DNA of 64,000 nt from Diphasiastrum complanatum (taxonomy: Eukaryota > Streptophyta > Lycopodiopsida > Lycopodiales > Lycopodiaceae), in the NCBI GenBank assembly GCA_029204225.1, contig CM055096.1, positions 75,117,521 through 75,181,520 of the forward strand, read 5' to 3'. Of the stretch, positions 21,760 through 52,335 are shown piece after piece. The notes beneath the pieces were generated by a model. The model made no database searches and had not been told where the DNA came from. It was given only the letters and a program-made list of their open reading frames with translations. The translations under genes were made by a program, and so were the position numbers. Each line of letters starts with the position of its first letter. The first letter of the stretch is position 1.

Positions 21760-25349
<3,590 letters not shown>

Positions 25350-28792: not shown

Positions 28793-28804
28793 GCTCTGAT
28801 ACCA
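28793..28804 (-). other. Primer-binding site (initiator tRNA-Met)
   Basis: Minus-strand TGGTATCAGAGC, about 110 nt upstream of the gag ATG, marks the inner edge of the 5' LTR. Confidence 0.85.
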
Positions 28805-30435: not shown

Positions 30436-30755
30436 TGTTGGAAATAATATTGGGTAATGCCACTTTGTTGGCTATTACTGGACATACTTGAAATGTACTC
30501 ATTAATGTAAATGTGGTTAAGGCCCAATGTGTCTCTAAATGGAGTAAATTACTTTAGGGCCCTTCGAATGTGAATGGGGCTAATGCTAAGAGGTTATTTG
30601 TGAGGAGGCATAACCTCCTCCTCCTCTCTCTCATGTTGAGTTCATTCTCTCTTTCATTGTATGGTGCAAGCTTATTGAATACAAGCATATTGTTCTCTCT
30701 CCATCTCTCTTGTATAATATGGCTTGAATCTCTGCTGCATGCTCTGATTTCAACA
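30436..30755 (+). repeat. 5' LTR (320 bp)
   Basis: Starts TGTTGGAAATAATATTGGG and ends GATTTCAACA. Contains a short inverted segment gaggaggcataacctcctcc and CT-rich runs. Confidence 0.93.
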
Positions 30756-30767
30756 TGGTATCAGAGC
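30756..30767 (+). other. Primer-binding site (initiator tRNA-Met)
   Basis: TGGTATCAGAGC directly follows the LTR end. Confidence 0.92.
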
Positions 30768-31379
30768 AGGGAATGGCTGACCCCTGAAGATCCAGACATG
30801 CAGTTTGATTCTTAAGTTTTGCATTTTTTTGCTGAGATATTTTCAGAATGTAGGAGTTTTATGTTCTGTTAGTTCTGTTTTAAGCAAAATGAATAAAAGA
30901 GAGAGAAGCATTTGTGTGCTTGTTGGTTTATTGTGAGAGAAATGCACAACACAAGAAAAGTTAATTTTGAAGGCAGTTGATCCATCTCGTTGGAAGAACA
31001 CCGATTAGCCACTGTCAGCAGTGATGCATTTATTCCGAAGAAACTATGAAGGTTCAATGAAGGCTGTTGCTAAACAACTGTTCCGAAATGGCTATTTCTG
31101 AAGAAGGCTTGTTGTTTCAACATTGTGATGATTGCACAAGAATGTGTACATTGAACTAGGATCCTCTTTGGCAAGACAATGTGTTAAGTCAAGAGTGTAA
31201 AACGAGGAGTTTTCGCAGGTTGTCTCAAGCTGCCTTCTTGGATCAGGCTGCTCCTGCCGACGTGAAATCAGTTTTTAAATTTTTACAAAGGAAATGGTGA
31301 TGCCTCACAGAACGTAATCTGTGGGGCAAATTTTAATTTGACAAAAAAAAAATTGACAATTTTTTCTTTTACAGGCATT

Positions 31380-31930
31380 TTCCGAACACCGGAAGGTGCA
31401 CGTAAAAAAATTTACGTTTTTTACATGCACTTTCCGCCCGGAAGGTGCGTGCAAAAAAAAAATTACGTCAAAAAAAAAAATGTAAAAACGGAATTCACAG
31501 AAGGGAAGGGCCGGCTCCTCGGCCCTTCTGCCCCGGAAGAGTGTGCGCCTGAGGGCGGAGTCCGGAAGGTGCATGTAAAAAAATTTACGTTTTTTACATG
31601 CGCCTTCCGCTCGAAAGGTGCTTGCAAAAACAAATTTACGTTAAAAAAAAAATGTAAAAACGGAATTCACGGAAGGGAAGGGCCGGCTCCTCGGCCCTTC
31701 CGCCCCGGAAGAGTGTGCGCCTGAGGGCGGAGTCCGAAAGGTGCACGTAAAAAAATTTACGTTTTTTACATGCACCTTCCGCCCAAAAGGTGTGTGCAAA
31801 AAAAAAATTACGTCAAAAAAAAAATGTAAAAATGAAATTCACGGAAGGGAAGGGCCAGCTCCTCGGCCCTTCCGCCCACGGAGGACCGTGCGCCCTCGGG
31901 CCTCCGCCCTCAGGCGCACACTCTTGGGGC
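31380..31930. repeat. 173 bp tandem repeat, about three copies
   Basis: Units start at about 31391, 31564 and 31736 with ggaaggtgcacgtaaaaaaa. Each unit has an inverted core (gtaaaaaaatttacgttttttac), an AT-rich linker and a GC-rich hairpin-like part (gaagggaagggccggctcct then cggcccttccgcc). Frames open across it on both strands are repeat artefacts. Confidence 0.9.
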
Positions 31931-31995
31931 CCCCCCACCCCCGCACCCGGGCCGTGAAGCATGCCTGATCGACTGAGTTGTTGAAATCTTGAATG

Positions 31996-32035
31996 CTTCT
32001 TGGTTTGTAAGGGGAGGCTCGAACTTGAGACCAAA
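31996..32035 (-). mobile_element. tRNA-related retroposon, 5'-truncated (40 bp)
   Basis: The insertion starts cttcttggtttgtaagggga on the plus strand. It is flanked by perfect 13 bp duplications, gaaatcttgaatg, at 31983-31995 and 32036-32048. On the minus strand it contains the B-box-like part (AAGTTCGAGCCTCC) and the AAGAAG end, but lacks the A box. Confidence 0.8.
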
Positions 32036-32744
32036 GAAATCTTGAATGAAGGAATGCAGTCCCGAAAGGAAGTGGAATTGAGCAAGATCTGGCCAGGCCG
32101 TTGTATGAAGGGCACTTGTTTGTCTCGACATTGTGCATTCAGTCCTGAAGAATGATGGTTGTTGGAGCCTAATCTGAAGTTCTGCCATCTGCAGGCCTGA
32201 CACGTTGGAAATACTGTGGAAAGAGGGATGACAAATTCAAGTGAGGTCGCGATCCAATACAGAGATGGCGCAATCCAGATCCGTGCAGAACGCGTGGAAG
32301 GAAGTCCGTTGGCTGGGTGAGAGTGACAGGACCGTGCAAGATTGAGGGTGCCCCAGAAGAAACTTACAATGGTGGACAGGCAGTTTTTTGAAAATATGAT
32401 GTCTGTCGCTGCTGGAGCTCGCTGTATCTTTCTTTGAAAAGTTCGTATGAAGGATAAGCAATCATCCTGTTGCTGTAGAAAAGCGTGAAGGACCAACGAT
32501 CTCTCAGGTTCTGCCAGAAATGCGTGTAGATGACAGATGTTGAGCGCAGCAAACAACCTGTTTCTGTTGTAAAAGTGTCTGAAGCCCGCTGGTTCTTTTG
32601 AAGCCGTTCAGGAGAGATTAAGTGCAGATTTGAACAGCCGTGAGGAACGCTCGATGCAGATTTTGGCTTTTGGCTTGGATAGAGAAGGCCCAAGGCCCCA
32701 ATCTCTGTGTGAAGAATGCATAGGGCTAGGCTCTAGCAATAGTG

Positions 32745-32877
32745 CTTCTTAATTTTCAATGGGAGTCTCGAACTTGCCAAAAAAAACTTTGGATGGCAAC
32801 CTAACCAACAAAGCCAATCCTATTGGGTCTCTCTAGCAACTTTGGATGGCAACGTAACCAACAAAGCCAATCCTATT
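32745..32877 (-). mobile_element. tRNA-related retroposon with internal duplication (133 bp)
   Basis: Starts cttcttaattttcaatggga on the plus strand and is flanked by perfect 13 bp duplications, tctagcaatagtg, at 32732-32744 and 32878-32890. The first ~82 bp align along their length to the 84 bp copy at 51958. The block caactttggatggcaac and what follows it is then repeated once. Confidence 0.8.
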
Positions 32878-32890
32878 TCTAGCAATAGTG

Positions 32891-33861
32891 AGACGTAGAT
32901 TTTTCAAACATTTTTCAACCTTGGTGACCTACATGATTGAGGTTGAAGTTGAAAGTTTAACATGCCATTTGTCAAACTAAGTGAAGTGTTGTACTCTTGA
33001 AGGTTTTTTAAGCAAACTTGAAGTGCTCCTTAAAGGGCAAATAAATAAATATGGTCAAGGTTCTTGTTCTTCGATGTATACTTCAAACTTCTGTAGAAAT
33101 GTTGAAGTCCATTTCGTTTTCAAGCTATTAGAAGAAGACAGAACTTGAAAGTTCAAGATGTCTTGACAATCACAAAACTTATGCTATGAAGTTTTGATGT
33201 GATGCTTGAATCTGAAGTTTTGAAGCTCACTGTTGAAAAGAGGTGGAGTTTTTCAAACTTTAGGAAAATGGTATTTTCTGAAGTTCCAAAGTTCGCAGAA
33301 CCTTGAACATTGACAAGCTTTAATTTGAAGTTTGATGCTTTAATCTGTAAAAGAAATGTGCCCTAAGCCTGATTTGAAAGATTTGAAGGTCTGTTAAATG
33401 AAGAAAGTCTTGTCAAAGTGAAACTTTCGGATTGAAAGGCTGTGAAAGATCAGCCCTAAACAGAGAATGTGCAAAACTTGAAAGGTGAAGTTTGTACTTT
33501 CTGCTTTTATTTACTGAAAGATGACAAACCAGTACTGAAAGATGACAGAATTTTAGAATTAATTTTTTTGTGTCATATATTGTTGTGAAGTTCTTACCTT
33601 GCAGAACATCCTTCAACCTTACAATGTGAACTGCTCCAGCTTTGCAATGAAGTTTCAGCCCCTCAGATTATGTCGGAGTAGTCGAAGAATTGATTTTCTA
33701 TGCTATGTTACTAAAGAACAATTTATTTTTAAGGCAGAATATTTTTTTGGAGGTGTCATAATGCAAGATAGATTTTCATGGTAGGACATTGGTTGTTGTC
33801 ATTGTATGGAAGATGTAAGGCATGATGTAAAAGCTTCAACAAAGCTGACCTGAAGGCAGGG
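32891..33861. other. Interior of the LARD-like element, no gene
   Basis: AT-rich and rich in words like gaagttttgaa and cttgaaagttc. No coding motif on either strand. The minus-strand 247-codon frame at 32556-31813, further left, has random-looking composition and overlaps the tandem repeat. Confidence 0.6.
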
Positions 33862-34181
33862 TGTTGGAAATAATATTGGGTAATGCCACTTTGTTGGCTA
33901 TTAATGGACATACTTGAAATGTACTCATTAATGTAAATGTGATTAAGGCCCAATGTGTCTCTAAATGGAGTAAGTTACTTTAGGGCCCTTCTAATGTGAA
34001 TGGGGCTAATGTTAAGAGGTTATTTGTGAGGAGGCATAACCTCCTCCTCCTCTCTCTCATGTTGAGTTCATTCTCTCTTTCATTGTATGGTGCAAGCTTA
34101 TTGAATACAAGCATATTGTTCTCTCTCCATCTCTCTTGTGTAATATGGCTTGAATCTCTGCTGCATGCTCTGATTTCAACA
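33862..34181 (+). repeat. 3' LTR (320 bp)
   Basis: Six substitutions relative to 30436-30755, no indels. Followed by cagat, the probable target duplication. Confidence 0.93.
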
Positions 34182-35094
34182 CAGATTGCCTAGCAACGCA
34201 CAAGTGTCATAGGAGGATTATGATTTAGGTCCAAGTACATTGCCAACTCGAAGAATCACCTTGGACACGCACACTATTTATGGAGTGAATACGATGCATG
34301 GTAGTCAACACAACCAATTATCGGATCTATTTCAAGATGAACTAGTACCATAACAATATGCCTTATCTTATAAAGAGGAAGTTAAATTGAAAAATTAGCA
34401 AATCTTCCAAATGCTATGGAATACAGTGGATACCAAATCAGCCTCCTCATAAGCCTCTGCATGTCTCTAAGACACTACTACCAAAGACGCTTGCATTGAT
34501 GAAAAATCATATAATTATAGTGGATTTTGGGCACTTGGCCACCCATGCATACCACTTTTTTAACTAAAAATGATAGGGAAGAGGATGCATGTATGAAGAA
34601 AGTGCATATCCCCATACATTTGCACATTATGTGCATTGAGGGGTGGGCCCCAAAAAGATTTCCCACCTTCTCTCTCCCACCCACTAAATTCAAATATCTT
34701 TTTCTAAATTCAAATATTTGAAGTTTGAAATTAAGGTTTTATTTTATTCACACACTTCAAGGTGCTTTAAACTTTAGCCAATAATCTTCATTACATGGCT
34801 TTCTTATTTATTTTGAATTACCAAAGAAATCTCTTGACTAGCTTAAACTGCTGTTTTTTTTTTCAATCCCGCAAATCCCTATCTTGGCCCCTTTTCAGGA
34901 ATAATTACCCACAAGCCCAAACTCACTAGCTTTAACTCCTGAATCGTTACCCACAGGCTTTTATCCATGGGCCGAAAAATGCACGGTTGAAAAAAACAGA
35001 AGAGGATGGAGTGAGGAGAGCAAAAGAGACAATAAAAAGAGAAAAATAAGGGGGGAGGAGGGATTTGGAACATACGTGCATGTGTGTGTACATA
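34182..35094. other. No recognisable gene
   Basis: AT-rich spacer. Frames at 34478-34721 overlap on both strands and show no motif. Confidence 0.5.
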
Positions 35095-35230
35095 CTGTGT
35101 GTGTGTGTGTGTGCGCGCACGCGTGCGTTCGTTGTGTGTGTGTGTGTGTGTGTGTGTGTGTCTGAGCTTTTCTCTGACACATCGATTGCGTGTGCGCATG
35201 TGCACGCGCGTGCACACACACACATACACA
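35095..35230. repeat. GT/GC-alternating tract
   Basis: (GT)n with gcgcgcacgcgtgcg inserts at about 35113-35130 and an inverted acacacaca run at about 35213-35230. Alternating purine-pyrimidine over about 130 bp. Confidence 0.9.
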
Positions 35231-35585
35231 CATATCTATAAAGTATAAAACTATTTTAGAGAGAGAATGTGTGTTTTGCTGTAAAAAAATGTCACATTGT
35301 GCCGCCAAAAATGTCACGCTCTGCCTGCAAAAAATGTTACCAATTTGCAAAGAGAAAAGCTAAAAAAATGTTTGAAAAAAAATGTATATAGATTCTTTCC
35401 TTGGTTTAAAAATGCATGTGTGCACTAACTACTTGTCATCCTTCATGATGACAAATCTGTGCCCGTCTCATACCCTTCTCACCCCTCTCTCCCCCTCACT
35501 TTGATTATGACCATCCATTATGGCTATTAGAGACTCTCTCCTATACCCTACTTTCTCTCTTTCACCCAATTTAAATTTTTCCATC

Positions 35586-35596
<11 letters not shown>

Positions 35597-35642
<46 letters not shown>
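35597..35642. repeat. (CT)n microsatellite
   Basis: About 23 CT units. Confidence 0.97.
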
Positions 35643-35643
<1 letters not shown>

Positions 35644-35659
35644 CAGGTGCTTTGGGGAT

Positions 35660-36335
35660 GGGGATTTCCGAATTTTTTTTGACCCAAAGATCAAAATCCA
35701 GAATCAAAATTTTTCGATACCGGATCGACTCAAAAAACTGTAATTTTTTGATACCCAAAATTAGAATTTTACAATACGGGATCGACTCAAAAAATTTGTA
35801 AGTTTTCGATACCCAAAATAAAAAAATTTCGATATGGGATTGACTCGGAAAATTCGTAATTTTTCAATATCCAAAATCAAAATTTTTTGATACCCAAAAT
35901 AAAAAAATTTCGATATGGGATCGACTCAGAAATTGCGACTTTGTATGTTTTTCAATACAATGTAAATTTCGATACTATCAGTTAGAAATTCGACCCAGTG
36001 GTAACAGTCCGCCTGCTTGTACATTCAAAGTCGATCGTAATAAATGTAGCAGATCGTTGGCCGTCCATTGCCCCTCAATCCCTTCCTCGAAAAATGCGAC
36101 ACCGCCCTCCAATTTTAGGCAGAAATCAAAAATTTTCGATACGAGATCGACTCAAAAAGTTTGTAAATTTTTGGTACCTAAAATTAGAATTTTTTGATAC
36201 CCAAAATCAGAATTTTTCAATAGCCAAAATTCGCAATTTTTCGAAATAAAAAATGAATTTTTCGATACAGAATCGACTCGAAAAATTTGAAATTTTTCAA
36301 TACCCAAAATCAGATTTTTTTTATACCCAAAATCA
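35660..36335. repeat. Degenerate repeat array: 'gatcgactcaaaaaattcgtaa' family
   Basis: The words cgatacccaaaat, gggatcgactca(g/a)aaaattt and gtaatttttcgata recur many times in about 680 bp with irregular 30-70 bp spacing. The whole block is AT-rich and non-coding. Confidence 0.75.
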
Positions 36336-36413
36336 GATGTCCACCCGCCGTACTTCGACCACGTAGATACACACATACATCGACCACCCGTCAACAACGA
36401 GCACTCTTTACTA

Positions 36414-36414
<1 letters not shown>

Positions 36415-36505
<91 letters not shown>
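36415..36505. repeat. (TG)n(TA)n(CA)n compound microsatellite
   Basis: A short TG run, about 22 TA units, then about 18 CA units; the flanking TG and CA runs are inversely related, so the tract can fold back on itself. Confidence 0.95.
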
Positions 36506-36507
<2 letters not shown>

Positions 36508-36640
36508 CAGATCTATACATGGGATGATGCCCCACCAAGCATCAATAGATGATGAAGCTAAATGTCATTATAAAGTTACAAATGGCTTGTACTTTGTGGA
36601 AAAACACAACTTCGAGCAACCTACATGGTTTTTTGATGAT

Positions 36641-36747
36641 TGTTAGCATGGCACAGTCCAATGCTCACAAATCTTAGAAATACTTGCAACTGTTTGAGTG
36701 TAGTACAAATCATAGTGTTTATCTGATTCTTTACATGGTATCAGAGC
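36641..36747 (+). repeat. Orphan LTR end with tRNA-Met primer site
   Basis: TGGTATCAGAGC at 36736-36747 follows ttctttaca, an LTR-like end. The nearest TG start candidate is TGTTAGCATGG at 36641, which would give an LTR of only about 95 bp. No partner LTR was found, so the left boundary is uncertain. Confidence 0.5.
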
Positions 36748-37261
36748 CCGATAGTCCTGCGTGCCTGATCAGTGAATATAGCTTGTCACAGGCTCCACAA
36801 TGAAGTGAGAAAGTCCTTTACAGGAGGTGAAAGCTTGGAGAGACAAAAATTGGAAGAAATCATTCCTTGGAGTATTTTAACAGCAGGTGACAGTGATTAG
36901 ATATACAATTTGACAGACTTTACATTTGGCTTGGTGGTTCTTTAACCCGTATTCCCTCTAATTAAAGCAATCGATAACTATATATAAAATGAACCAAGCC
37001 AAAACACAAACATGTTTGAGGAGAGATTGAAGGAGGCATACTTCATGTGACCTCAATTATCGAGTTGATCTTTCTATTTCCTTTGGAAACTAAAGAATGT
37101 GAAGTAACATGATCATGAAGCTACATCTCTCGAGTCGAAGACATCCTTCTCACATTATTGTTCTCAAGAGATTGACATGCTTCCATGGCCCAAAAAAATT
37201 GCAAATTTTAATGATTTGAGTCAGCCAGGTATTTAAGGCCCCCAATGTGCTTGGACGCCAA

Positions 37262-40200
37262 TCAGCACAGATACTTTGCAAGCCAAGGGACCTCTTTGTT
37301 GTCCTTCAATGCAAAGGAAACATCTTCACTGAAAAAACCATGTGTGTCAATACCAGGCAGATCCAACAAGAAAGCAAGCTCGTGACAAGCTACAGTCAGA
37401 ACGAGCTCAGACAGTCACCAGGCCAATAAGCTTAAAATAGCAAATCCTCAGCGTTCATGCAACAACAGATGTCTCAGTGAATACCTGGGAAAGTTAAGTT
37501 GTAATTTTTGGAGTCTATGTTGGGAACCCTGCTCAGACAACAGGAGCCGACATGCACCAAGCCTGCACCTGCATTAGCAATAAACATACACTAAGATATT
37601 TCTAACGTGAGCTACAGCAGGAACTCACAAACTATATTCTCAACACAAGGTCTTTCGTACCCGATTGCTAGAAGAGTGTCCCAATTGGGACATTGTTCAT
37701 TGTTGGTTGAACACAACAATGAATGAGCTATGGCAACCTGGTTGAAAACAAAACTTTCATCGATTAGTTCACTAGCATCATACTGACAAACCCACATTAC
37801 ACTCCAGAAACAATGAACTGATAACTGTGATTACTACCCTCTAGAAATACTACCTTCTCAAACGATGTCTCAGCCATTCCAGTTCTGTTCTGCTCATGAA
37901 GAATGGCCAAAAGGAAAATTTTTGCTTGCTTTGAAGACTGTTTCATGATCTGCAAATAGACAATTCCAATACATAGCAACAATATGAAAATTTAAAAAGG
38001 GAAGATGTCATCGCAAAGGACAAATGGGTTTAGCAAACTAAATTTAGCTTTCGGTTGTCCCAACTTGAGTGGTCTCATGCAATAAGCAACCATTTGAATG
38101 CTAACAGATGGCAATAAATGGTCACAATTGAAGTTTCCTAGCCCACCTGCATGTGAGGTGCTTGAAACATCTCAAGAATTGCAGCCTCCACATCTGCCAT
38201 ACCTATAAGCTTCCCACTAGCTCCAAGTCCTGCTTCAGCAATTATATTCACTTTAAACGTAATCAATAGTACCTTGTCTGTCTTCTTTATGATGATTATT
38301 CTGCAGATTATGCATAACATGAGCACGCTTGTCACCAACATGTACTACACTTCAAGGAGAGCTGCAAGACTACAGATCTTAGAAAATCTTATTGAGTCAG
38401 GTGTACGTTTCCTGGTAGGTTTCAGAATCGGCCAATTCTGAACCAGATCAATTGGCGGTTCAATCGTTCAGATTTGGCCTCTGCCAATTTGACTGTAAAG
38501 AAACAGCCTATTTAACAAAACGCCAAAGAAAATGCTTATAATGCTGGGAAAATTAGATATAAAGTAAGTTTTTATTTGACGTCAACAAATGTTTAGTGAT
38601 TGTTGCAGGCGAAAAGGATTCAGGGGTTAGTGTTCAGAAATCTGGTTTATAGAAAACCCGGGGCCCAATCCTTGGGGTTCCAATCACATGAATCAGTTCA
38701 AAATTTGAATAAATTTAATTCCAGGCCAATTGTCATTAAGTGAAACACGAACCAGGTGATACAGTAACCTTTAGCATGCCGACAGCCTTTAATTGTTGTG
38801 GAAGAAAGATCACTAAGCCGCTGTTCTGCAAGCTCGACAGCTCTTCTGCAAAGTTCCAACGCTCTGCGTGCATCGCCTGATACAGCAGCAACCTTTCAAA
38901 GTAGAGATATAACCAAGAAACTTGTTAGATATTTAAAATTTAAGATCAGCATTTGGATTCCACCTAAGTTGAAGTCACAGCGCTAAGAGCCTAGTCCAAG
39001 CACATAAGTACTTTCCATACTGGTACAGGTATCCCTCTTAACACAGATATTAGTTGAAAATGAAGACAATTATCAAAAGCAAGCATAAATTAAACATATA
39101 ATTCAGCCCACACCTTGCGAGACGCAAACTCAACAGATAACTTATCAAAGGCCTGTATGCCACACAGTCGAGAATGGATAATTTCCTGCAGTTGGTGGTG
39201 AGTATAGGGACTGAATGAGATCCTCTGCAGTCCCATTCGACTGGCTATACGGGGAAGGAGACGCTCTGGTAGGTCAATTGTATTGGCTATACCTGTTGAA
39301 ATGAGTACAGCACCGCTTTAGAGACTATGTTTGGTGACTGAAGTACTGGATGAATGAGAATTTGCCTGAGATAATTGAGTCTCAAAAGATTGATGTACCT
39401 ATGACAATCAAACGAGAATGAGCACGAGTTGGCCAGTCAAAGATATTGTACAGCACCTGCAAGCAAGGTCTGGAGTAAGAGACCATTCGTGTGAAAGATA
39501 GTATACATAATTGAATGCTACAATCAGAACATAAACTCAGTAAAATAAAAATCCAAATCTTGAATCAAAAAGATTCTCAAAGGTTCAAAAATCAAAACTT
39601 TTTACTATGATTGAAACGTTACCCAGAGGAATTCATTACACAGATGAACCATGGGGATCAAAATTGCCATTATCTCTCTTTTCCATGTCCATTTGGTCCA
39701 AGATATGAGAAGCTAAAGAACGATATACAATGAATTGGTGGGTATGAATCTATGTAATTGGATATTCATGTGTCAGCAGCCTTTAAGTCCTGCCCCAAGA
39801 ATGTTGACAAATCTTGAACCGAAAATAGGAATGATCAACTGTTATCTTCCAACATGAACATTTCGGACGCTTCACATGCTCATCAATAATGTACTCTAGA
39901 CGTCTATGTTTCCATGTCTCTTACATGGATAGGAGATCTGTTGCCTTGAGGATAAGGGAGGTACAGGCGACCATTGGCAGTGACACAATCACTGATGGCC
40001 ATAATTTTATCAGTCACACCTCTTTCTCTAGACAAAATCCTGCCTCAAATTTGGGAAAATCTCATTGCAGCAGGGAAACTTTTGAAAGTTTTCAACACGA
40101 TTCAATCAAAAGTTCAACATGTTTCAAAATCTTTTGGGTTTTTTCTTGTCTTGACCCATAGACATGTCAAATTAAGGGGTAGGGGGGTTAAATATAGGAA

Positions 40201-43200
40201 GAGAACGTGAAAGCATAATTCTATTCGATATACTCTTAGTAAAAGAAGCCAGATTCTTTCAATCAAATATAATTATGATCCATACATAACTCGTAAACAC
40301 AAAATCCCGTCTTTTAAAAAACAGGGCCCAATGATCCTGTTGGCCACTTCGAGGGCAAAAGGGACAAAAACAAACTGGTAACAGACATTTCAAATGCATT
40401 TGAAACGTCCATTTCAAGTGAGTCCCAAGAAACAATTGAAGCAGTTTTATTGCCACTATGCAGAGGATGATGGGTAAATGGTCACCAGGATCAATTGTCA
40501 AAATTGTTGGCAACTACAACTCACACTGAGATGGTAGACATGCAGCTCCACCAGCTTCAATCGACATATGCCCCATGTCAAGAACACATTGGACATCTAA
40601 GAAATTAAGGACCCTGCTCCACTTGGGGTCATAAAGATGGGATTTCTTTTTTCCAAAATTTGCTCACAAGGCATACAATGATGTACTTGATTCAAATGGA
40701 ACATGTAGTCACTCAAAACTTGTCTCAAAGGCTCATGAGGATTATTTTGTTAAGAAAGTTGAATATGAAGTGACATAGCCCTTCTCATCAGAATTCTCCA
40801 TGATGGCACTTGATTAGAAGATGATTATGACACATGCAATCTCAAGTGGTTTTGTGTGTATTTCCAGGGTCCTAGTCTTGCTTTTCAGCTAGACAAATTT
40901 AGCCCTTGATATAATGGTTATTGTTGATTTTGGGTTTAGGCTTATGTGTTAGAGACGCACATCAAACTCCAAGATGATGGAAAACTACTCGGTACGTACT
41001 CGTTTAATCTTATGTAACTGTTTGGTACATAAGATCAAAAAAGTTATCTATGTTTGATACTAAATATTAGCAAGCGCAAATTTTGCAACGTGCAAACAGC
41101 CTTAACTCACATGCCTTCACAATCGCACAGTTGGGCTCAGTCAGTATGTAAGAGAAGGAAAACTCATCACAAAGTTCAAATCTAACAGGGAAATAAAGGC
41201 CAATCAAATCAAATAAGTGAATGACTGCAATTAACATTGAAATTTCCCTGCCCAAGTTAACCAGAAAATGTACCGACTGGTTCCGGGTGACAAGAAGATC
41301 AAGTTCGTCAACGAGAAGTATGCATGGTCTGCCATCAACACTGCTAGAGGATACAATTTGAGAAAACCTCTTATCCAGCTTTTGTAGAGCTTTTTTCCAT
41401 CCTATGTGCTCACCTGTGAGTGCTTCGTGAATCATCTGCATCAAATGTGTGTGGTAAAAATACGAACACGCTCTCAGGAAATGAGTGATAACACAGATCT
41501 CTTCTTGACATTGAACAGCAGTGCTGCCTATAATGCTTACTGTGTATGTGTGCTCTGGAGAGATAAGTCGCAGACCATTGATTTCAATAAACCTATAGGG
41601 CTGCAGCTCACCGTCTTCAACCCTTTTGTGCAATCCTCTCAAAACTTCTAGCACCGTTGCTGTCTGCTCAAAGTACAATAGAGTGGTGGTAACCAGCACA
41701 AAGTATGCACTCAAAGAATAACAGTCAACAAGAAGCAATTTATCTTCTTCATCAAAACTGCAGCAATTGGGGAGCGACAAGAAAAAAAAATGAAATAGAT
41801 TAGAACAGGCACGTACCTTGCCAGTGCCAGGGACACCACTTATGTAAAGACATCTACCCAGGCACTGTGTTCCTGCAGCAACAGCATCATCCAGAAACGA
41901 TCTGATTTCTTTCCTTTCCCTGCATATGCATGTTATCATCAAGAAGTAGAACCCTGGGCACATAACATGAAACCCAAAAAAGTGGCAACACCTGGAGCAT
42001 GCACTGACTCGCAGACATGGCTTAGAATGCTAGTGAAGCATACGTTTCTCTGCAAGGCAAGGAGCCTGGGATTGAGGAGAGCAATAAGGCATGTTTTGCT
42101 TTCTCAAATTCGGTCTGTGATCGTCTCACATCACTAGGGATACTTTTAGCCCACAGTCCCTCTAAACCTCCTATTCGACTGTGACTATTCTGCAGCCACC
42201 AAAGTTATGTGGTGTGTCAATCATAGAATTCAAAGACTCTCAAATTTGTTGAAAAATTGCAAAAAAGTGACGACAATGCAGCTGGATAACTCAACCCAAA
42301 TCGATAAAAAAAACAAGTAGTGATCTTGTAAACAGGTTCATTTCTAGTGATATTCATCCACATTTTGGAGGATAAAAGAAGGCTTACTGCATGTTTTGCA
42401 GCAATGCTGTACTTTTTCCTCCTTATAGGCACTTCTTTAATCACTTTTTTTTGCTTCTTATGCTTTCTATACGTAGAACTTTTTACTTCGTGTTCTTCAG
42501 TGTTATCACCGGACCAATCACCTTCACTATTCCCCTGCCATTTCCAGAAAGTAATGGCCAATCAGATTCTTTAAACCTGAATGAACAAGGTGCCATAGCT
42601 TGTCAGACATGTGGATCATGTTACAGGTTTGGGACAAGTATCATCCATAACATCATAATTGCATTTTTTCAAGTTTTATGGTCAAAACAAAAGGCAGAGC
42701 ACTACGAACATCGTTTGAAAGAGCCAAATCATTTTGATCAATATTTGCGATACGCCTAAATGTATGCCACTGCGCATCATACTCGTACTCGCAAAAAAAC
42801 ACATCGTCACCCTCGTTGCTGGCCTTTTGAAAGGCTCCTGGTTCCATAACATAGCAATGTCGCAAAATCGATTCCATCTGTGTCAACAAGTAGATCCATC
42901 TGATTAAAAGCATTTTGGTCTAGTCTTCGGACAACTTTTTCAGCAACAAGAATGTCAATTCTGTTTTCCCGTAAATAACCTCACCGAAATTTCGGTTACT
43001 TCTGGAAATAAACTGGAGAAAATGAGATCATCCTATTCTTATTTCATCATGTTACTTTTGTAAAAGACTGTTGTACATTTGCCATACCTCATTGGTATCT
43101 ATGTGATTGGTACGAAAGACTTCTCTTCTCCCATTATGTGGTTGCCTACCCATGGCTGTTTCTTCAGGAATAATGTACCAGGGACCCTCAAACCAGTACG

Positions 43201-44123
43201 ACGAATCTGGTTCTTTCCATAACCTGCAAATACGCTTGCAATAGAACTAAGTCTTAAGATAGCCCTATACAAACTATCAAATGTTAAAAACTAGCATAAC
43301 TTACTAGGATGAAGTGACAGATGCACATCAATTGAAATCGAATAAAAAAATATTCAAATAAGAATATATTAAGTAGTTACTGCTTGATTCAACTCACAGA
43401 AATTTGAATCGATTCAATCTTTTTTTCAAATTAAAATTGCTTGATTTCAAAAGTTTGAAGATTTTTTTTTTTGAAAAGAGAAACCATGAAATTTCAAGAA
43501 AAAGGTGGGAACTTTGGAGGAAAAGAAACATGTTAGAATCTGAAATTGAATTCATTAGAAAACCTTCACATCACAACTCTTTGCTTTTATAGGATTCAAA
43601 TACGGCCGAGGATTAAAAGACAAAGGAAACAATAAAAGCTGGCAAGATGTCCTGTAACACCCATGTACAGGAACAGGAGCAAAACCACTTTTTTTTACTG
43701 AAAAAAAATCCAATTTCATTAAAATAGTCATGCTTACCGATCAATCCGAGCGGCCCAGAGCTCACTTGCTAGAAGCCTCTCTCGTGCCGTTCTATGCCTT
43801 TTAATAGACCTCCTGGTGGGCCTTTTTCGCTTGTTTCGACCTTCACCTTCTTCACAGTACAAGCATGCCCAATCCCCAGCAGGAACTGCTTTCAGAGGAG
43901 GATCCAAACATTTAAGATGGAACCCACCTAGGCAAATGTCACATTCTATCATTGTGCCACCCCCTGCTCTTCTACATACAACACAATCCTCAACCTCCTC
44001 ATCAGACTCCTCTTTACCTGCATCTATTCTTTTCAAGTAGACATCATCCCCAACCTTAAATTCAACTCCATCTAATCTAACCCTGCCAAAGTACTGCCTT
44101 TTACGCTTTTGGGAGCCCCTCAT
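37262..44123 (-). CDS. ORC1: Origin recognition complex subunit 1, multi-exon
   Basis: ORC1 is the ATPase that nucleates the origin recognition complex on nuclear DNA before replication. Exons (minus): 44123-43738, 43223-43088, 42877 to about 42700 (donor unclear), 42534-42388, 42189-42044, 41919-41817, 41663-41541, 41435-41274, 39456-39399, 39292-39114, 38892-38769, 38250-38147, 37949-37854, 37737-37661, 37568-37485, 37328-37262. All defined introns are GT-AG and phases agree. The first exon carries a PHD finger (CVVCRRAGGGTMIECDIC, then HLKC and CLYC), followed by BAH pieces (YWFEGPWYIIPEET; DDVFFCEYEYDAQW). Walker A GVPGTGK is split at 41817/41663; Walker B is ILLVDELDLL. The C-terminus ends VPWLAKYLC. 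Without the unclear exon the model is 664 codons, so about 720 residues. Plant ORC1 proteins usually have a longer N-terminus, so an upstream exon may be missing. An in-frame stop is reached if the donor at 37485 is not used. Confidence 0.93.
39457..41273 (-). other. Large ORC1 intron (1.8 kb)
   Basis: It separates the Walker B exon (ending NQS plus a phase-0 boundary) from the exon starting VLYNIFDWP. Short frames inside, such as 39889-40161, have no motif. I see no repeat or nested gene in it. Confidence 0.7.
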
Positions 44124-44835
44124 CTTAGTGGCACTGCACACCTTTTGGCCCAGCTAGAGACTTAACAAGACCCACATCACCAAGTCTGATGCAAACAAGA
44201 AAACGAAGTTTCCAGATTTTCCCACATTTTCGTCGCCAGCAGTTATAAATTCTTACTTTATGATTTTCAAACTTGGCACTGACTGAAAAATAAATGGAGC
44301 TGTACATTAAAATACAAAAAAATAATCTCTATGTGATTGGAAGCAACAAGAAATGCATACAGTTTAGATATCAGAATCCAAGAAAAAAGGCATAAAGCAA
44401 TGCATGGAGAAGTCTAAAACCCAAATGGATATAAGGGAATCCCTATTATTCAAGGGGGGTAACAGGAATAAGACTAGCAATGCAAGAAAATGCGGAATAA
44501 TAAACTGAGGTCGCTGCTCCAGAGTCCAGACTAGTATTGTTGCCACGAGCATAAAATACCTGCTTTTTTCATCCTCAGCTGGAATGTTGGAGCATCCTTA
44601 CTTCTAGCGTAAGTGTATCTTAGACCTTAGATCTTAAACCCTAAACAGAAAGAAAGGCAATCATAGTAAAGCCTAAAATCTGAAACCTTTAAGAAAGAAA
44701 GGCAATAGTACTAAAACCCTCAATCCTAAACCTTTAACTTTTAGACCCTAAGCCCTAAACCTTGATTTTTTACACCTTAATTTTAAACCCTGAACCTTTC
44801 ATTCAAGTGTTATTACTAGATTGCACAAATGTGTT
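44124..44835. promoter_or_regulatory. ORC1 5' flank with telo-box-like cluster
   Basis: About 510 bp upstream of the ATG lies aaaccctaaac (44636-44646). More ccctaaac and cctaaacc words follow between 44700 and 44790. AAACCCTAA is the plant telo-box, known from promoters of genes active in cycling cells. Whether it acts here is inference, and the cluster could also be a degenerate telomere-like repeat. Confidence 0.4.
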
Positions 44836-44839
44836 GTTG

Positions 44840-45490
44840 GAAAAGGGCATGCCGGTAATAAAGTAATAGCATCCACTAAGAGATCTAGTTTGCATTGGTC
44901 CACATAGATCAGTGTGGACAAGATCTAGAATGCCACTAGCTCTCCTTGCTCCACTTTTGGGAAACCTCTCTCTATGTTATTTTCCCAAAATGCAACCTTC
45001 ACAGATTTTTCCTTCAAAAGAAATATCAGGCAATCCAATAACTAGATTACCTCTTTTGAGAATCTGTAAACTTTGAGCACTAATATGACCAAATCATTGA
45101 TGTCAAAGATCACTGAGTAAAAGATCTTGCATTCAATTTGTAGAGTCGATTCTCGTTGACTCTAGCTCCTATAGCAATCACTTTGTAGTGATTCTTGATG
45201 TCCTTGACAAGACATTTGTCGCTATCAAACTCAACCGTGAGTTGTTGATTAGCAGTCGTCCCAACTGATAGTACATTATTAGCCAAACCAGGTACATATT
45301 GCACATTGTGTATCCGCTTTATCATCCCGCTAGCTACCTTCACTAGTACCACTCCAAATCCTTTCACAGATAGCAATTGGCCATCAGCTTGTCCAACTTC
45401 ATCACCATTGTGGATTTCCTTGAATTCCAAAAAACACTCCTTCCTCGAAGTCATGTGCTTGGACGCTCCACTGTCGATGTATCGGCTTTG
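44840..45490 (-). pseudogene. Ty1/copia protease-integrase start fragment
   Basis: On the minus strand the copia protease site RYIDSGASKHMTSRKECF lies at about 45485-45432. It is followed by VQYVPGLANNVLSVG and, after a stop, the pre-integrase zinc region (FGHISAQSLQIL and CEGCILGK). Then come LDLVHTDLCGPMQTRS, which contains the first catalytic Asp, and CYYFI near 44850. The Gag side and the rest of integrase are missing. The right edge lies about 90 bp from a large palindrome. Confidence 0.85.
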
Positions 45491-45578
45491 TCACTTGTCA
45501 TTAGCATTGCTTTCACATGTCCACTGGTCGCGCGTTTCGGGTAGTAGCACTAGTGTTTCGGTTCGTTGTAATGAACAA

Positions 45579-46822
45579 GAAAGGCCGGGGTAGCATCAGA
45601 CATATTGAAAATCTGTTGAGTTGGGAGATCTTTACAATACTTCCAAGTTTTGTGTCAAAAGTGCCATTTGTGAGAGAGTTTTGCCAAGAAATCTCTCATT
45701 TGTTTGTTTGCGGACACACTAGACTGTGTTTAGTATTACCATTCATAGTTATGAGGCATTTAGGAACTAAAAGACTATGATTTCATTGAGTTTTAGCCTA
45801 CTTTTGTGATTTTGTGTGAAACTTGTGCAAGCAAGTAGGATAGGTCTAGAAAACTCAGTATTCTCCATCATTTGCAGTGAGGGTAGAGTTGGGAGATAGC
45901 CAACTGCAAGGAGAGTTGGATTAGTAGCTCATTTCATAAAAAATCACAAATTTTGGTGGAAATTTGAGTGAAAAACAAATTTTTTTGGCTGGGAAAACAA
46001 TGTTTTGCAGGTTTGCTGGCTATATTCTATTGCTGAAAAGGTGCTGAACAAGTCTGAAACGTGGCACACAAGCCCGAAACGCCACCAAAAGGGTCCGAAA
46101 CACCACAGAAGGGCCCGAAACGTCTAAAGTCTGCCCCCGAAACGCTGATCAAGTGACCCGAAACACCAGTCCTACACCAGTCCACCAGTCCTCCCCTCGT
46201 GTGTTTCGGGTTGTAGGACTGGTGTTTCGGGTCAGGTTTTCGGATCACTTGATCAGCGTTTCGGGGCAGACTTTAGACGTTTTGGGCCCTTCTGTGGTGT
46301 TTCGGACCCTTTTGGTGGTGTTTCGGGCCTGTGTGCCATGTTTCAGACCTGTTTAGCACCTTTTCAGCAATACAATATAGCTAGCAAACCTACAAAACAT
46401 TGTTTTTCCAGCTAAAAAAATTTGTTTTTCACTCAAATTTCCACCAAAATCCGTGATTTTTTATGGAATGAGCTACTAATCCAACTCTCCTTGCAGTTGG
46501 CTATCTCCCAACTCTACCCTCACTGCAAATGATGGAGAATACTGAGTTTTTTAGACCTATCCTACTTGCTTGCACAAGTTTCACACAAAATCACAAAAGT
46601 AGGCTAAAACTCAATGAAATCATAGTCTTTTAGTTCCTAAATGCCTCATAACTATGAATGGTAGTACTAAACACAGTCTAGTGTGTCCGCAAACAAACAA
46701 ATGAGAGATTTCTTGGCAAAACTCTCTCACAAATGGCACTTTTGACACAAAACTTGGAAGTATTGTAAAAATCTCTCAACTCAATAGATTTTCAATCTGT
46801 CTGATGCTACTCTGGCCTTTCT
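45579..46822. repeat. Long inverted repeat, about 600 bp arms
   Basis: The left arm (about 45579-46180) is the reverse complement of the right arm (about 46210-46822) at roughly 95%, with a loop of a few tens of bases near 46195. The outer ends read agaaaggccggggtagcatc and, on the other strand, agaaaggccagagtagcatc. The inner 150 bp of each arm contains the motif ccgaaacRcc about seven times. Transcribed, it would form a very long hairpin. The shape fits a foldback element. No coding frame of substance is inside. Confidence 0.9.
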
Positions 46823-49432
46823 AATGCCTCCGGGACTGTGTCTTCATTTCTCACGGCTATTCCAGCTTTGGACCAATTCATCTATTAGAACTGCACATAA
46901 CTGTCAAGTGGGTTGATTCTCAAACTAAACCTTTAACCCTAAACCCTTATTCCCAGCAAAGATCACTAGAGTTTTGTTGATGTTATGTATGAAATCAAAA
47001 CACTTATTATTTTCTAGTACTCTTAACATCATTTGACATTAAAAAAAACTGGCCAGGAAGAAGATTTATTATATTGACAAATTGTTTCTTTGGCTCAATT
47101 ATTTTGAAATCGCAGGATCTGCCAAATAATATCTGTTTACTTCTATGTATTAACATGGCACCGATTATTGTTGGCAAGCTATGCAAATTGTCAATCGATT
47201 GCCAGATATCCGACTTTGCAATGAATTAATTTGCAAATCCAAGGTCTCTTTGCCTTCATAAATCTCTGATTCATTTGCATACTCGTAGATAAAGGCGAAC
47301 TCAGATTACTTGATCGCCCTTGAAACAAAAAATTGAACAGAACATCTGAAGATTAAACAGATTCCAAGAGCTTATAGACAGTTATTGAAACTGTCCAAGG
47401 CTATAGAGAAGTGTTTCCTGGCACTTCAGAATTAGAGTATTCTAAACAGAATGAATCAGCGGTCAGCTGGTTTGGGCTTGGCCCCGGTCGATTTGACATG
47501 TTAATCATATTAAAAACATTCAATCATCATCTCTGTTTCGCTCATTAGGATGTTGTGTGACATTTAACTAGCATTTAGGCACTGTAGAAGTATCTAGGTT
47601 ATCAGTTAGCATTCTCAATCGAACCATCAAATTAAGGTTACTACTTCAATTTCAACGTAGAACTTAAATAGAAATCTAGAGCTCTCTGTTCATTTGAAAA
47701 TTGGTCATGATCGTTACTTTATGCTAGTGGATGCCTTTGGCTTTTTGAGAGGCTTTTTCCTTTATAAGTGAAAAATGTCACTCTCACCTTTATGTGCAAC
47801 ATAATTTACACCTTTTTCTTTCAACTTTTCATTGTATTAAAATGTTACATCATACTGAAATGTCCTCTGGAAAATGATTAACTCGGTGTTCAAGAGATCG
47901 GTATTACTATTTCTTTTCGATTTTGGATCTCTGTACTTCATATGAAAATGTTATGCTCCAATTTGTCCCTTTTCTTATACTCCCTCATAAGAGTTGGAAT
48001 TAAGATGTATGCTAATCAAAGCCTTCAAAAACTAAACGAAATGCTCTCAAAGAAACATGCTATGAATTATTTGAGAGTGGTTGAACATCAGATTCTCAAA
48101 ATTTGTGAATTGCCTTACCACATATTCTTTGAACTTTGAAGACAAAGTACACATGAGAAGTACCTGAGACGCAAATTGGCAAACTGACAAATGGGCAACT
48201 TAGGAAAGTTGAAAAAAGGACAAGTGCCTCTCCAACCATCCTTTAAGCAGAAGTAAAAATATTACATGCCATAGGGCCACCAAGTCCAATTTTAGGGGCC
48301 ACATGTCTATCTAGGGATTGCTCTAAGAAAAGACACTTTTAAAGGACATAGTTGCCTTTGGCCAGCTCGTGCCTCCACCACTCGAGTGCCCGAGTCCTAG
48401 ATTATATGCGGCAATGGCCCTCCCGATGGCCATTACCCGGTACATAATCGGCTAGTGATGGTAATTAGAGGCTTTTGCCAAGGATTTGCATGTGAATTCA
48501 TTAGTAAGAGAATGTGGTGGGAAGATGAATATCTTTGTGTCTGTGAAGGAAGGCCATTCTTCTGTGTGAGAATTTTGGATGTTGTCGTTGCTATTATGAG
48601 CAGGCTATGCAATGATGTCGAGTGGGCTGTTGTTGCTAATCGATCTTTCTGAATTGGAGAAATGGATCTCACCCTCTCTCCGTCGGCTGTGTGTGTATTA
48701 CTTTGATGGTTGTTGATGTTGTAGAAGCCATTCCCTATATTGTTTAAAATACTTATTGATAATCTCTAGCTCTCTCCGGTCACACTCTATGTCTCAAGAG
48801 TTGACTACCAATATAAGATTGTAGTGGATAGGCTCATATTTGCTCAACACAAGTTCGTTCATGTTCCGTCTCAGACACAGAAAGCCAACTCCAAGGTACT
48901 ACGGTCCATTGAGCAGAAGCTTGCTCATAACACTTACTTCAGCTACCTGCTACTATCGAGCATGTGTCTTTTTAAGTGTTAGCTTTTTGGGATAGTCGAG
49001 GATCTTGCCACATAGATTTAGTTGTTCAAGAGTTGTTGCCATTCCTATCACGTGTTTTCTATTTGGGAGCACGGTGTGATAAAATTGACTTTTTTTTAGC
49101 AATTTGACCATTTCCCAACAACCTGATTTCCTTTCCCTCCTTTGGTACTGCTACAATCTATCACCCTTACCATGTTACTCAACCTCCAGACCCGTGGAGT
49201 TTGGTTCATCACACCACCTTTAATTCACATTAGGACAGTTGAAAGTCTAGTCTCGTCACGGTTTGTACAAATGGATATAAGGCGACGTCCCTTGTCAAAG
49301 ATTCGATGACTGGACGATGATGAATGTCAATCCACACAGCTATCAGACATGATGGAGCAACCGTATTTCTCCCATGCACCTCTCAACTGGAAAAGGTCCT
49401 CTATGAGTGTCTCCACTCGTGAAAGATGGTGC

Positions 49433-49434
<2 letters not shown>
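46823..49434. other. No recognisable gene
   Basis: AT-rich intergenic DNA. The 65-codon plus frame at 47942-48139 and the overlapping frames at 48433-48672 have no motif. Confidence 0.5.

Positions 49435-49514
<80 letters not shown>
49435..49514. repeat. (GA)n microsatellite
   Basis: About 40 GA units followed by a short G-rich run (gggcgggggggg). Confidence 0.97.
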
Positions 49515-49520
<6 letters not shown>

Positions 49521-49589
49521 GCGGGGGGGGTAGGTGTTATCACACGTTGTAGCTGCGATTGTTCGGTCATGATTCCTATATTATAGGAC

Positions 49590-50040
49590 CAAATTTCTCA
49601 AATCATGGAGGTGGCCATCAAATTGGAAAAATTCTAGGATTAGGTGAGATTTACATATTAGGGCAAGAAAGGTCAATCAATCTCTTTATTACATGTTGGA
49701 TTTTCACCTAACTTGAGAGGAGAAGAGCCCTATTGTACATACAATCTATCATCCCATTGTGAGGAGATAAAATTTCTGGAGCACATTGGCAATCTCAAGT
49801 TTCCTACACATTTGTCTTGAGTTTTTGTGAATGCCTTGCTATCAAAACTTGATTACAATTAATCTCAGCGTTTGATCATTGCTTTTGGTTGTTCTTGCTT
49901 GTGAAATCCTAAATTGATGATATTCTAGATCAAGATTTTGTGACTAGTTTTGCAATAAATAGATGCATCAAGTAATCAGTCACTCTTGGAGTCTTGTGTA
50001 GGCTCATTTATGGTCCTTAGTACTGTACTTCTAACAATTT
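49590..50040 (+). repeat. Member of the dispersed LTR-like family
   Basis: Related to 20810-21250: attacatgttgga, cacctaacttgaga, gagcacattggcaatctcaag, ttgagtttttgtga, and at the end cactcttggagtcttgtgta then tttatggtcctta. Boundaries unknown. Confidence 0.5.
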
Positions 50041-50985
50041 ACATATTGTTAGTACTTTCAAATATATAGTTCTCAAATGATAGTTTGTAAGCATGCATAT
50101 TTTTTCAAATGAAGCTCAAACCCAATTTGAGTTGGTGGTAGAGGCCAAATGCAAGCCCCCAAAAACACACTATTAGGTTTGACAATGCTTAGCCTCCAAT
50201 TGGAGGTTAAAAAGAATCATGTTGACAAAAAACTAGCTCATGCTAGCATTTAGTTTCATGTTCTTTTTCATAGTCATCAAACAAAAATTTCAAAACAAGA
50301 CATGTACTATAGTGACCTTTTCAACAAGAAGAATGGACATAATTTTGTGAATCCACAAATGTATAATTAATATACTTGTTGCAAAGGTAAAAAGACACTA
50401 AAATTTTTTTTTCAAGCCTAGTGAAGGGTGTTGAGGCATAATCTTCTTTTAAGGCATAACTTTTCATGTGATATGTATGTTTTATGTACAGGGGAAGCCC
50501 CCCTCCCGTCTTGGGGCCTTTCCCTGCATAACGACTGTTAGAGGTTTTTTTTTAAATAAACTTTTATATTTTTTGAAAATTTAAGGCTAGGACGTACGCA
50601 TTTTCAAAAATAGCAATATGGACCTCATTGCCTTCTAAAATAGTAAATCTCAAATATATGCTCATGTCTAATTTTTCTAAAAATAGCAATAGATACTTTA
50701 TGTGGCTTTTCAAAAATAATAACTATACCTTACAAATTTGTAAGGTGCTTATGTGACTTTCCAAACTCATCTACTATCGTTTTGTATTTGAGAATGGTCT
50801 TTCTAGGGCCCATTACAGATGTTAAGGCCAACATGTAACTTTCAAAATTACTCAAATCACCCATAAAGGTTAGTGAAAATATTGTTTACTTTCATAAAAG
50901 TTGAGTGAAAATATTCGTGAATCTTACTTAAAAAACACATAAGATTTTTTCTAATTTTATGAATTGAATAATTAATCCAACAACT
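50041..50985. other. No recognisable gene
   Basis: AT-rich, with an isolated GC-rich hairpin-like piece at about 50494-50532 (ggggaagccccc, then ttggggcctttcccc-like). Confidence 0.5.
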
Positions 50986-51236
50986 CAACTCAATTGCTAA
51001 TCATTCAGAAATCTCAAATGCCTAGTTGCAGAATTCGTTTTTGAGTATTAAAAGAATTAACAAATAAGAAAGAAAAAAAATGATGAAACTTACATTAAGT
51101 GTGACACCAATTACTCAAGTCAATTGCTAATCATTCAAAAATCTCAAATGTCTAGTTGCCGAATTCATTTTTGAGTATTAAAAGAATTAACAAAAAAAAA
51201 AAAGATGAAACTTATATTAAGTGTGACATCTCATGG
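50986..51236. repeat. Direct duplication of about 125 bp
   Basis: caattgctaatcattcagaa and about 100 following bases (50991-51116) are repeated at 51122-51236 with about 10 changes. Confidence 0.9.
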
Positions 51237-51740
51237 GGCCTTCCTTGCAGGTCGGGCCCCAAGGCAATGGCCCTCCCTGCAAGGAAGGCCCTCGTCAGGG
51301 CCTTCCACAGTACAAAAAGAGGGCTCCACATAATTGTAGCACCCTGGCGTGTCAGGGTGCGCCAGCCAGGGGCTGGCCAAAAAGGTGCATGGGGGCGCCA
51401 TGGCGCTAGGGCGGTCGCGCCAGGGGGCAGGCAGCACCCAAGTGGAGTCGGGCAGGGGCACCGGCACCAGGTGGGTGGCGCCGGTGCGCCAGGTGGGTGG
51501 CGCCGGGCAGGCCCAGGTGGCGCCGGGAACCGGGCAGGTGGCACTTGGCAGCTTCACACCCACCTGCACACATGTGAGTAAGCAGGTGGGTTCAGTTATA
51601 TGTAGGTACTGGTTTATCTCAGAGATTTGCTTATGGGATAAACCCTGGTGCCCGACACGTGGCACCAGGGCAACCAGTTTAAAAGGAAAAAAAAACCCTC
51701 CCTGCCTGGCCCACCCTGACGCGTGCACAGGGTGCTAAAA
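51237..51740. repeat. GC-rich island, probably LTR- or repeat-derived
   Basis: An abrupt change to very GC-rich sequence with short direct and inverted repeats (ggtgggtggcgcc twice; ggccttccttgcag and its inverse ctgcaaggaaggcc). Frames are open on both strands only because stops are rare at this composition. A tgtgac start next to the preceding duplication would suit a gypsy LTR, but no partner exists here. Confidence 0.5.
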
Positions 51741-51772
51741 ATAAGAGGAGGCCAAAAAGAGATTGTTGTATC

Positions 51773-51858
51773 ATAGTTTTGATTCTAGAGATGAATTTGC
51801 ATATGGGTCCTACCAATAGTTTTGATTCTAGAGATGAATTTGCATATGGGTCCTACCA
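51773..51858. repeat. 43 bp tandem duplication
   Basis: atagttttgattctagagat and the rest of a 43 bp unit ending in cctacca occur twice in a row. Confidence 0.92.
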
Positions 51859-51957
51859 TCTCGTGGATTCAGCTTCTTCTTGCAACTTCTTGCAAGTAGG
51901 TATAGGATTGTGACTTAGGGATTAGGGTTTAGGGTTTATGTAGTGATGGTGAAAATG

Positions 51958-52041
51958 CTTCTTGGTTTCCAAGGGGAGGCTCGAACCTGGGACCAAAGAA
52001 ACTTTGGATGCCAAGCCAACCAACTGAGCCAACCCCGTTGG
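51958..52041 (-). mobile_element. tRNA-related retroposon, longest clean copy (84 bp)
   Basis: Flanked by perfect 18 bp target duplications, gtagtgatggtgaaaatg, at 51940-51957 and 52042-52059. The minus strand has a perfect pol III A box, TGGCTCAGTTGG (52031-52020), and a B box core, GTTCGAGCC (51986-51978), about 35 bp apart; it ends CCAAGAAG. The acceptor and T stems do not pair, so it is not an intact tRNA gene. The structure fits a very short tRNA-derived SINE. Confidence 0.82.
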
Positions 52042-52335
52042 GTAGTGATGGTGAAAATGAGAGAGTAACACAATGAGTAGCATGACTTAACTCAGTAAAG
52101 CATTTTTAGTTCTTATATTAAAAGCTACAACATCCAAGATGTCCGACATACAAGGCGTGCAATATATCAGATGGCACATGAAAGCTGTCTGTTGATACCA
52201 TCAAGATCAAGTGGATTTATTGTGGTAACTTACTGTCTATGGCATGTTCCTCAGCCAATAAAATCATAAAATATGTCTTTCACAAGTAAAGTTGTTGGAC
52301 GTGATGTGCTGCTTGACGTAAGCGTATATATGCAG

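Follow-up and report, generated by a model that had tools for sequence, protein, structure and literature searches.

The stretch of the Diphasiastrum complanatum genome analysed here (64,000 nucleotides, positions 75,117,521 to 75,181,520 of contig CM055096.1 in assembly GCA_029204225.1; hereafter, the window) contains three short insertions, e1, e2 and e3, that almost certainly represent a recently active, multi-copy family of short interspersed nuclear elements (SINEs) of about 85 bp, inserted by target-primed reverse transcription. A first-pass annotation of the window had delimited the three intervals, each with a CTTCTT start on the plus strand and perfect direct repeats (13, 13 and 18 bp), and had described one of them as a 5'-truncated copy. 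All of this was reproduced, the truncated copy being e1, which corresponds to the last 40 bp of the element (Table 1). The length of 84 bp assigned to e3 is better read as 85 bp, with one C (position 52042) common to the element and the target copy, and the perfect A box ascribed to the longest insertion is indeed present, albeit in the 84-bp copy e3.

Only three of the 88 CTTCTT sites on both strands of the window have an abutting repeat of at least 13 bp within 400 bp, and these three are e1, e2 and e3. In a shuffled-flank control, repeats of at least 13 bp occurred in 0 of 4400 trials and 10 bp was reached in four. Pairwise comparisons of the three insertions gave 66/83, 36/40 and 31/37 identical aligned bases. 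A profile built from them detected no additional copy in the window, its four matches at E < 1 being e1, e3 and both parts of e2. The latter insertion is composite: a full copy of 83 bp is joined to a second 5' half of 38 bp through TCTC and TCTAGCAA, the latter belonging to the target duplication of e2, and the TTGCTAGA between the full and the half copy equals the last eight bases of the 13-base target of e2. The agreement between the upstream target copy of e1 and the element stretch that e1 has lost (Table 1) is reached by just 25 of 63,987 13-mers. The window also carries an ORC1-like gene, the PHD part of which best matches a solved ORC1B chain, a PTR2-family gene, and pieces of copia and gypsy elements; e3 shares its strand with the PTR2-domain reading frame and lies about 300 bp past the end of it.

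Table 1. SINE insertions, their target copies and their host element, in window positions (LTR, long terminal repeat; Pol III, RNA polymerase III)
Feature	Position	Strand	Basis or remark
e3, full SINE copy, subtype S1, 85 bp, CCCAACGGGG...AAGAAG	51958..52042	-	at least 40 further copies in the genome, identical at all 84 bp
Pol III A box of e3, TGGCTCAGTTGG	52020..52031	-	consensus match
Pol III B box of e3, GGTTCGAGCC	51978..51987	-	consensus match
Downstream target copy of e3, CATTTTCACCATCACTAC on minus strand	51940..51957	-	direct repeat
Upstream target copy of e3	52042..52059	-	direct repeat
T at -17 and C at -18 of e3 nick	52076..52077	-	target-rule alignment
Full copy within 133-bp insertion e2, nearest subtype S5, with eight consecutive T inside	32745..32827	-	alignment
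Internal joint of e2, made of 4 additional bases and TTGCTAGA (8 bases from the target duplication of e2)	32828..32839	-	
Second 5' half in e2, 38 bp, stops where T run of full copy starts	32840..32877	-	
Downstream target copy of e2, CACTATTGCTAGA	32732..32744	-	direct repeat
Upstream target copy of e2	32878..32890	-	direct repeat
TT at -17/-18 of e2 nick	32907..32908	-	target-rule alignment
e1, 5'-truncated copy, last 40 bp	31996..32035	-	alignment
Downstream target copy of e1, CATTCAAGATTTC	31983..31995	-	direct repeat
Upstream target copy of e1	32036..32048	-	10/13 bases match element stretch lost from e1
TT at -17/-18 of e1 nick	32065..32066	-	target-rule alignment
LTR element hosting e1 and e2; LTRs 30436-30755 and 33862-34181 (314/320 identical)	30436..34181	+	

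The assembly (1,744,706,496 bp) was searched with the 84-bp copy, and the best 40 of 933 first-look candidates were scored, so that the copy number obtained is a lower bound. The search yielded 50 match rows, of which at least 40 were full-length and 100% identical; among the matches listed, all of these lie on contigs C1 to C3, the window itself being on C5. Together with their flanks, the 40 identical copies, which define subtype S1, represent 39 distinct loci, one of them an array containing two copies. The expectation of the first-pass annotation that such matches would carry target duplications is borne out: exact duplications of at least 9 bp were found in 36 of the 40, of which 35 measure 13–19 bp, and at two loci outside this exact set, L056 and L057, the duplications measure 16 and 15 bp and each contain a single mismatch. 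It had also proposed that matches lacking duplications, or always embedded in a longer repeat, would argue against a retroposon. The flanks differ among the 40 identical copies, which are therefore not pieces of one longer repeat. An exception is seen at two S5 places with common flanks, L064 and L065, where one insertion with identical 60-bp flanks occurs at two points of contig C16 separated by about 7.6 Mb; its host is presumably a duplicated or mobile sequence. The element end is AAGAAG or a close variant in the fetched copies, in place of poly-A, as first noted in the window, or of poly-T. In S1 copies it is followed by CAT in 38 of 40 cases, the remaining two having CACT or TATT.

Members of the arrays described below define at least four subtypes, S1 (that of e3), S2, S3 and S4. 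With e2 as the query (best 40 of 352 candidates), no scored match other than e2 itself exceeded 88%. Fourteen of the 39 other places were fetched, leaving 13 after removal of the duplicated locus (L065, with the flanks of L064); these loci resemble one another and constitute subtype S5. The duplications of e1 to e3 are perfect although the elements differ by 10–20%, which suggests that several source lineages were recently active, rather than a single old burst. Comparison of the joined flanks of 45 loci with 362 kb of sequence gave a single empty site, that of L029, where two relatives of the host repeat, with 79% and 75% identity to the joined flanks, cross the site without the element. Twenty 10-kb stretches along C1 (200 kb, including 7,298 N) contained two matches, both diverged and both in one stretch, so the window appears to be rich in this family; very roughly, and from these two matches only, the genome total may amount to thousands to tens of thousands.

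In e3, the A and B boxes match the consensus sequences of RNA polymerase III promoters. Their spacing in S1 and e3 is 32 bp, inside the range of about 30–40 bp expected of a tRNA-derived SINE, and the B box is 14 bp from AAGAAG. In e2, the A box TGGCTTTGTTGG has one mismatch, and e1 is without an A box. A correctly spaced pair of boxes occurs once in the window and also in 6 of 100 shuffled windows. The tRNA relationship proposed in the first-pass annotation holds as far as these boxes, and only the boxes suggest a tRNA ancestry of the family: descent beyond them found no match in either ARAGORN, which detected 0 tRNA genes in the window, or Rfam, in which segments of 201 bp containing the 84-bp and the 133-bp copy matched no tRNA family at E values up to 10. 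A 19-mer of the element had three matches in bacterial collections, none of them at tRNA genes, and none in viral ones. RNA folding gave z = -1.8 for e3 and nothing for e2 or e1, and the structural consensus of two sequences was too thin for use. A candidate 3' hairpin, TTGGAAACCAA in e3 and TTGAAAATTAA in e2, was dropped because it is broken in e1. Assignment to miniature inverted-repeat transposable elements was likewise rejected: the ends CCCAACGGGG and AACCAAGAAG form no terminal inverted repeats, and the duplications vary in length. The downstream target copy of e3 contains TTTT, which could serve as a polymerase III stop just past the element. TTTT within 10 bases 3' of the last member is found in 9 of 52 cases, as opposed to about 6% of background YCAT sites (p = 0.005), so the target signal could supply the stop, the effect being modest.

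There is little doubt that the insertion sites obey a common rule, TT-N16-Y^CATT, that is, TT, 16 bases and then Y^CATT. It was derived from 34 sites (31 S1 loci at which the left target copy could be located, together with e1, e2 and e3) after leaving out 7 of 41 sites with AAGAAG directly before. At these sites, the base at -1 is T in 25 and C in 9, and the four bases that start the duplication are C in 33, A in 34, T in 32 and T in 27, with CA in 33; the upstream T is found at -18 in 26 sites and at -17 in 32. In a held-out set drawn from S5 loci and from the leftmost flanks of additional arrays (14 of 20 scorable), T occupies -17 in 12 sites and -18 in 12 (p = 2.5e-5 each, against 0.30) and both positions in 10, and all 14 sites have Y at -1 and CAT. 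The nick on the opposite strand would read (A/T)ATG^R. The first-pass annotation had hinted at a nick preference from CATT and CACT; with 34 and 14 sites, the preference is real and stronger than proposed. For a U-ended RNA pairing with the primer, three of three sites pair four bases with CAUU, wobble included, as would 4 of the 256 4-mers, and an origin of CATT in such pairing is inseparable from a nuclease preference.

Another feature of the family, missed by the first-pass annotation, is its mixed-subtype arrays. They were identified at 10 of the 39 S1 loci (L011, L015, L020, L022, L023, L025, L027, L031, L055 and L060) and at 3 of the 13 S5 loci (L069, L076 and L077). The elements follow one another head to tail, separated by target copies, and there are two to five members where the flanks are long enough. 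The figure of 10 is the inspected count; the automatic count was 9, and 11 loci were listed with at least two members, including L017. Rows dropped were those of L028 (the L027 array), L065, the three distant partial matches of L017 and an opposite-strand match at L031. In L017 (1911–2402), three partial copies of the 3' half of the element are 210 and 158 bp apart; this is perhaps a longer tandem repeat that has captured the 3' half.

Neighbouring members often belong to different subtypes, several of them exactly (S1 and S2 in L011, S1 and S3 in L015, S2 and S1 in L031, S4 and S1 in L055), so simple tandem duplication does not explain the arrays. The target copies, that is, the left flank and the spacers, stop at the same base in 8 of 9 scorable arrays, with lengths of 15, 15 and 15 bp (one mismatch) in L011, 14 and 14 in L015, four times 15 in L020, 16 and 16 in L023, 9 and 9 in L025, 14, 14 and 14 in L027, 19 and 19 in L031, and 14 and 14 in L060. 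Solo duplications (n = 28) vary from 14 to 17 bp, and when lengths were drawn independently from these 28, all eight arrays were uniform in 0 of 200,000 trials. At the junction 3' of a resident element, CATT is kept and the rest of the rule is broken (CC at -18/-17, G at -1). If the members had arrived separately, the second cut should vary as it does in solo insertions, unless the cDNA was joined to the resident element by homology; a single event explains both the uniform ends of the target copies and the broken rule to the right of a resident element.

Taken as a whole, the account of a SINE family with this target rule and with arrays made by template jumping is, in our view, probably correct. 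From the anatomy of the arrays, which is observed directly, we infer the following series of steps. RNA polymerase III would transcribe the element from its internal boxes. The protein of a long interspersed nuclear element (LINE) would read the TT about 17 bases upstream and nick the opposite strand after (A/T)ATG, and reverse transcription of the SINE RNA would start at AAGAAG. At the 5' end of the RNA, the enzyme would switch to the overhang of the other strand at its free 3' end, copy it up to CATT, and then move on to another SINE RNA, again entering at the 3' end; repeated jumps would produce a chain of element, target copy, element and target copy in a single event. We lean towards the view that the arrays arose in this way, within one insertion event during which the reverse transcriptase switched between two kinds of template, SINE RNAs and the target overhang. 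The insertion e2 may be an interrupted chain: copying of the overhang would have ceased after 8 bases, and the second template would have been a 5' half RNA that stopped at the T run. In turn, e1 may be a simple 5'-truncated insertion with the overhang annealed to the cDNA, as its match to the lost stretch would fit. The chances are slightly better than even that a LINE-type enzyme of this plant builds SINE concatemers in a single insertion by alternating between RNA and overhang templates, the arrays being frozen intermediates in which the other strand had been cut, and its overhang was accessible to copying, before first-strand synthesis was complete.

The arrays could also have grown stepwise, each new element entering the regenerated left site and its cDNA end joining the start of the resident element by homology, with the spacer length kept constant; we consider this explanation possible, though rather unlikely. 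The left target copy does retain the upstream signal and Y^CATT, equal spacers are also expected from homology joining, and in L011, L015 and L023 the leftmost member is S1, the query subtype, of which there are at least 40 identical copies. However, the newest member should then be leftmost, yet L025 and L060 have an exact S1 on the right and, on the left, members with 7 and 9 differences, respectively, from all defined subtypes, although these divergent left members could belong to undefined subtypes. The partial spacer of e2 does not fit stepwise growth either. Much less probable is an origin of the arrays at the DNA level, through tandem duplication or conversion of one insertion. The half and the full copy of e2 have the same base change relative to S5 (AATAGG), and a single difference separates them over 38 bases, a likeness that fits local duplication equally well as two RNAs from one source, but many arrays combine different subtypes, several of them exact. 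Finally, it is very improbable that the elements are tailless tRNA retropseudogenes moved by chance by an L1-type enzyme: they are short, lack poly-A, and have A and B boxes and target duplications, as do such copies described in mammals (available part of PMC5322556), but the mammalian copies are 3'-truncated at loops while here a single 3' end with small variants recurs among the fetched copies, at least 40 of which are identical, the nick differs from TTTT/AA, and no tRNA model matches.

Several observations weigh against the template-jumping account or the sampling on which it draws. As the top-scored matches, from three contigs, the 40 S1 copies constitute a non-random sample, and S2 to S4 were defined from array members that were later compared with them. 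Among S1 loci, L004 has an offset 13-bp repeat and no in-register duplication, and 3 of the 13 S5 loci (L068, L074 and L075) show no clear duplication. The two neighbours in L020 are both S4-like. The target copies of L022 measure 11, 11, 13, 13 and 13 bp, and the uniform-length test omits this array, L055 (left flank outside the sequence), and two spacers of L027, one foreign and one, preceding an S1 copy, that lacks CA. In L025, agreement between the target copies extends further than their agreement with the right flank. One spacer in the five-member array of L027 (1100–1584), CATTATTTTAGGCTA, is the foreign one; it requires a separate step, for example, a read-through dimer RNA, and the array looks as though such a two-element RNA had entered in one piece. 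A tRNA cloverleaf is unsupported by the ARAGORN scan of the window, by folding or by Rfam. Nor was a LINE with the same 3' end found; a catalytic-box scan of the window produced contexts that look copia-like and gypsy-like as well as chance matches, none of them LINE-like. A scan of the sequence examined for other insertions obeying the target rule gave 28 pairs, of which 14 end as this family does; the other 14 compare with 11–16 pairs with wrong gaps, so there is no excess of other insertions obeying the rule.

The tRNA-derived plant SINEs Au, p-SINE, TS, ZmSINE and SB, as covered in the available part of PMC3747384, resemble the present family in their A and B boxes, non-coding nature, target duplications and many copies, but here the element is only 85 bp long, the 14 bp between B box and AAGAAG set it apart, and no such target rule was found among those described. 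Tables 1–3 of that paper list (A)n, (T)n and (TTG)n as 3' ends of plant SINEs and (ATT)n and (CTTT)n as those of algal ones; AAG is unlisted there, among the LINE ends as well as the SINE ends. For RTE LINEs and their SINEs, the accessible text of PMC13295347 gives a Tn-TA signature, in which a run of T lies some ten bases upstream and the duplications begin with T or A. The split target signal, with its upstream T and preferred first duplication base, is alike, whereas here TT is 17–18 bases away and the first base of the duplication is C in 33 of 34 sites. L1 prefers to nick at TTTT/AA (accessible part of PMC2912911). The SINEs mobilised by L1 and the tailless retropseudogenes, to judge from the accessible parts of PMC2912911 and PMC5322556, share target-primed insertion and 5' truncation with microhomology, but have the TTTT/AA nick and poly-A or 3'-truncated ends, in contrast to (A/T)ATG^R and AAGAAG here. 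SINE sequence in tandem is also found in the SINE-derived satellites of reptiles; in those described in the available portion of PMC10702118, parts of SINEs are amplified, whereas here mostly whole elements alternate with target-site copies. The structural rule of SINE-Finder, as quoted in the accessible part of PMC8825457, expects 20–500 bp between B box and tail; the distance in the present element falls outside this range, so similar families may be overlooked.

Six element stretches searched in paper texts gave 0 matches. Among the papers listed, none dealt with a SINE like this one or with SINE arrays spaced by target copies, most subscription papers lying outside the search. As far as these literature searches reach, the family is probably new, and no description of its target rule was found.

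To our knowledge, the timing and manner of second-strand cutting and joining in target-primed insertion are poorly known. If the arrays arise in one step, this stage would be recorded in genomic DNA in enough copies for measurement. The TT-N16-Y^CATT rule provides a fingerprint for finding the partner LINE, and the element shows how small the requirements of a SINE can be.

The LTR element that hosts e1 and e2 has a TGGTATCAGAGC primer site, a 172-bp tandem repeat (31389–31894) and the flanks TAGAT and CAGAT; no coding domain was recognised in it (30436–34181). Elsewhere in the window, two 574-bp direct repeats (25347–29975), 94% identical and each holding a tandem array of units of about 80 bp, enclose copia-type coding pieces. 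A large palindrome at 45578–46822, 93% self-complementary over its full length, represents a foldback element. A gene for the small nucleolar RNA snoR28 (42740–42817) lies between AAA-type and ORC1-like coding stretches on the same strand as both, and is therefore probably intronic.

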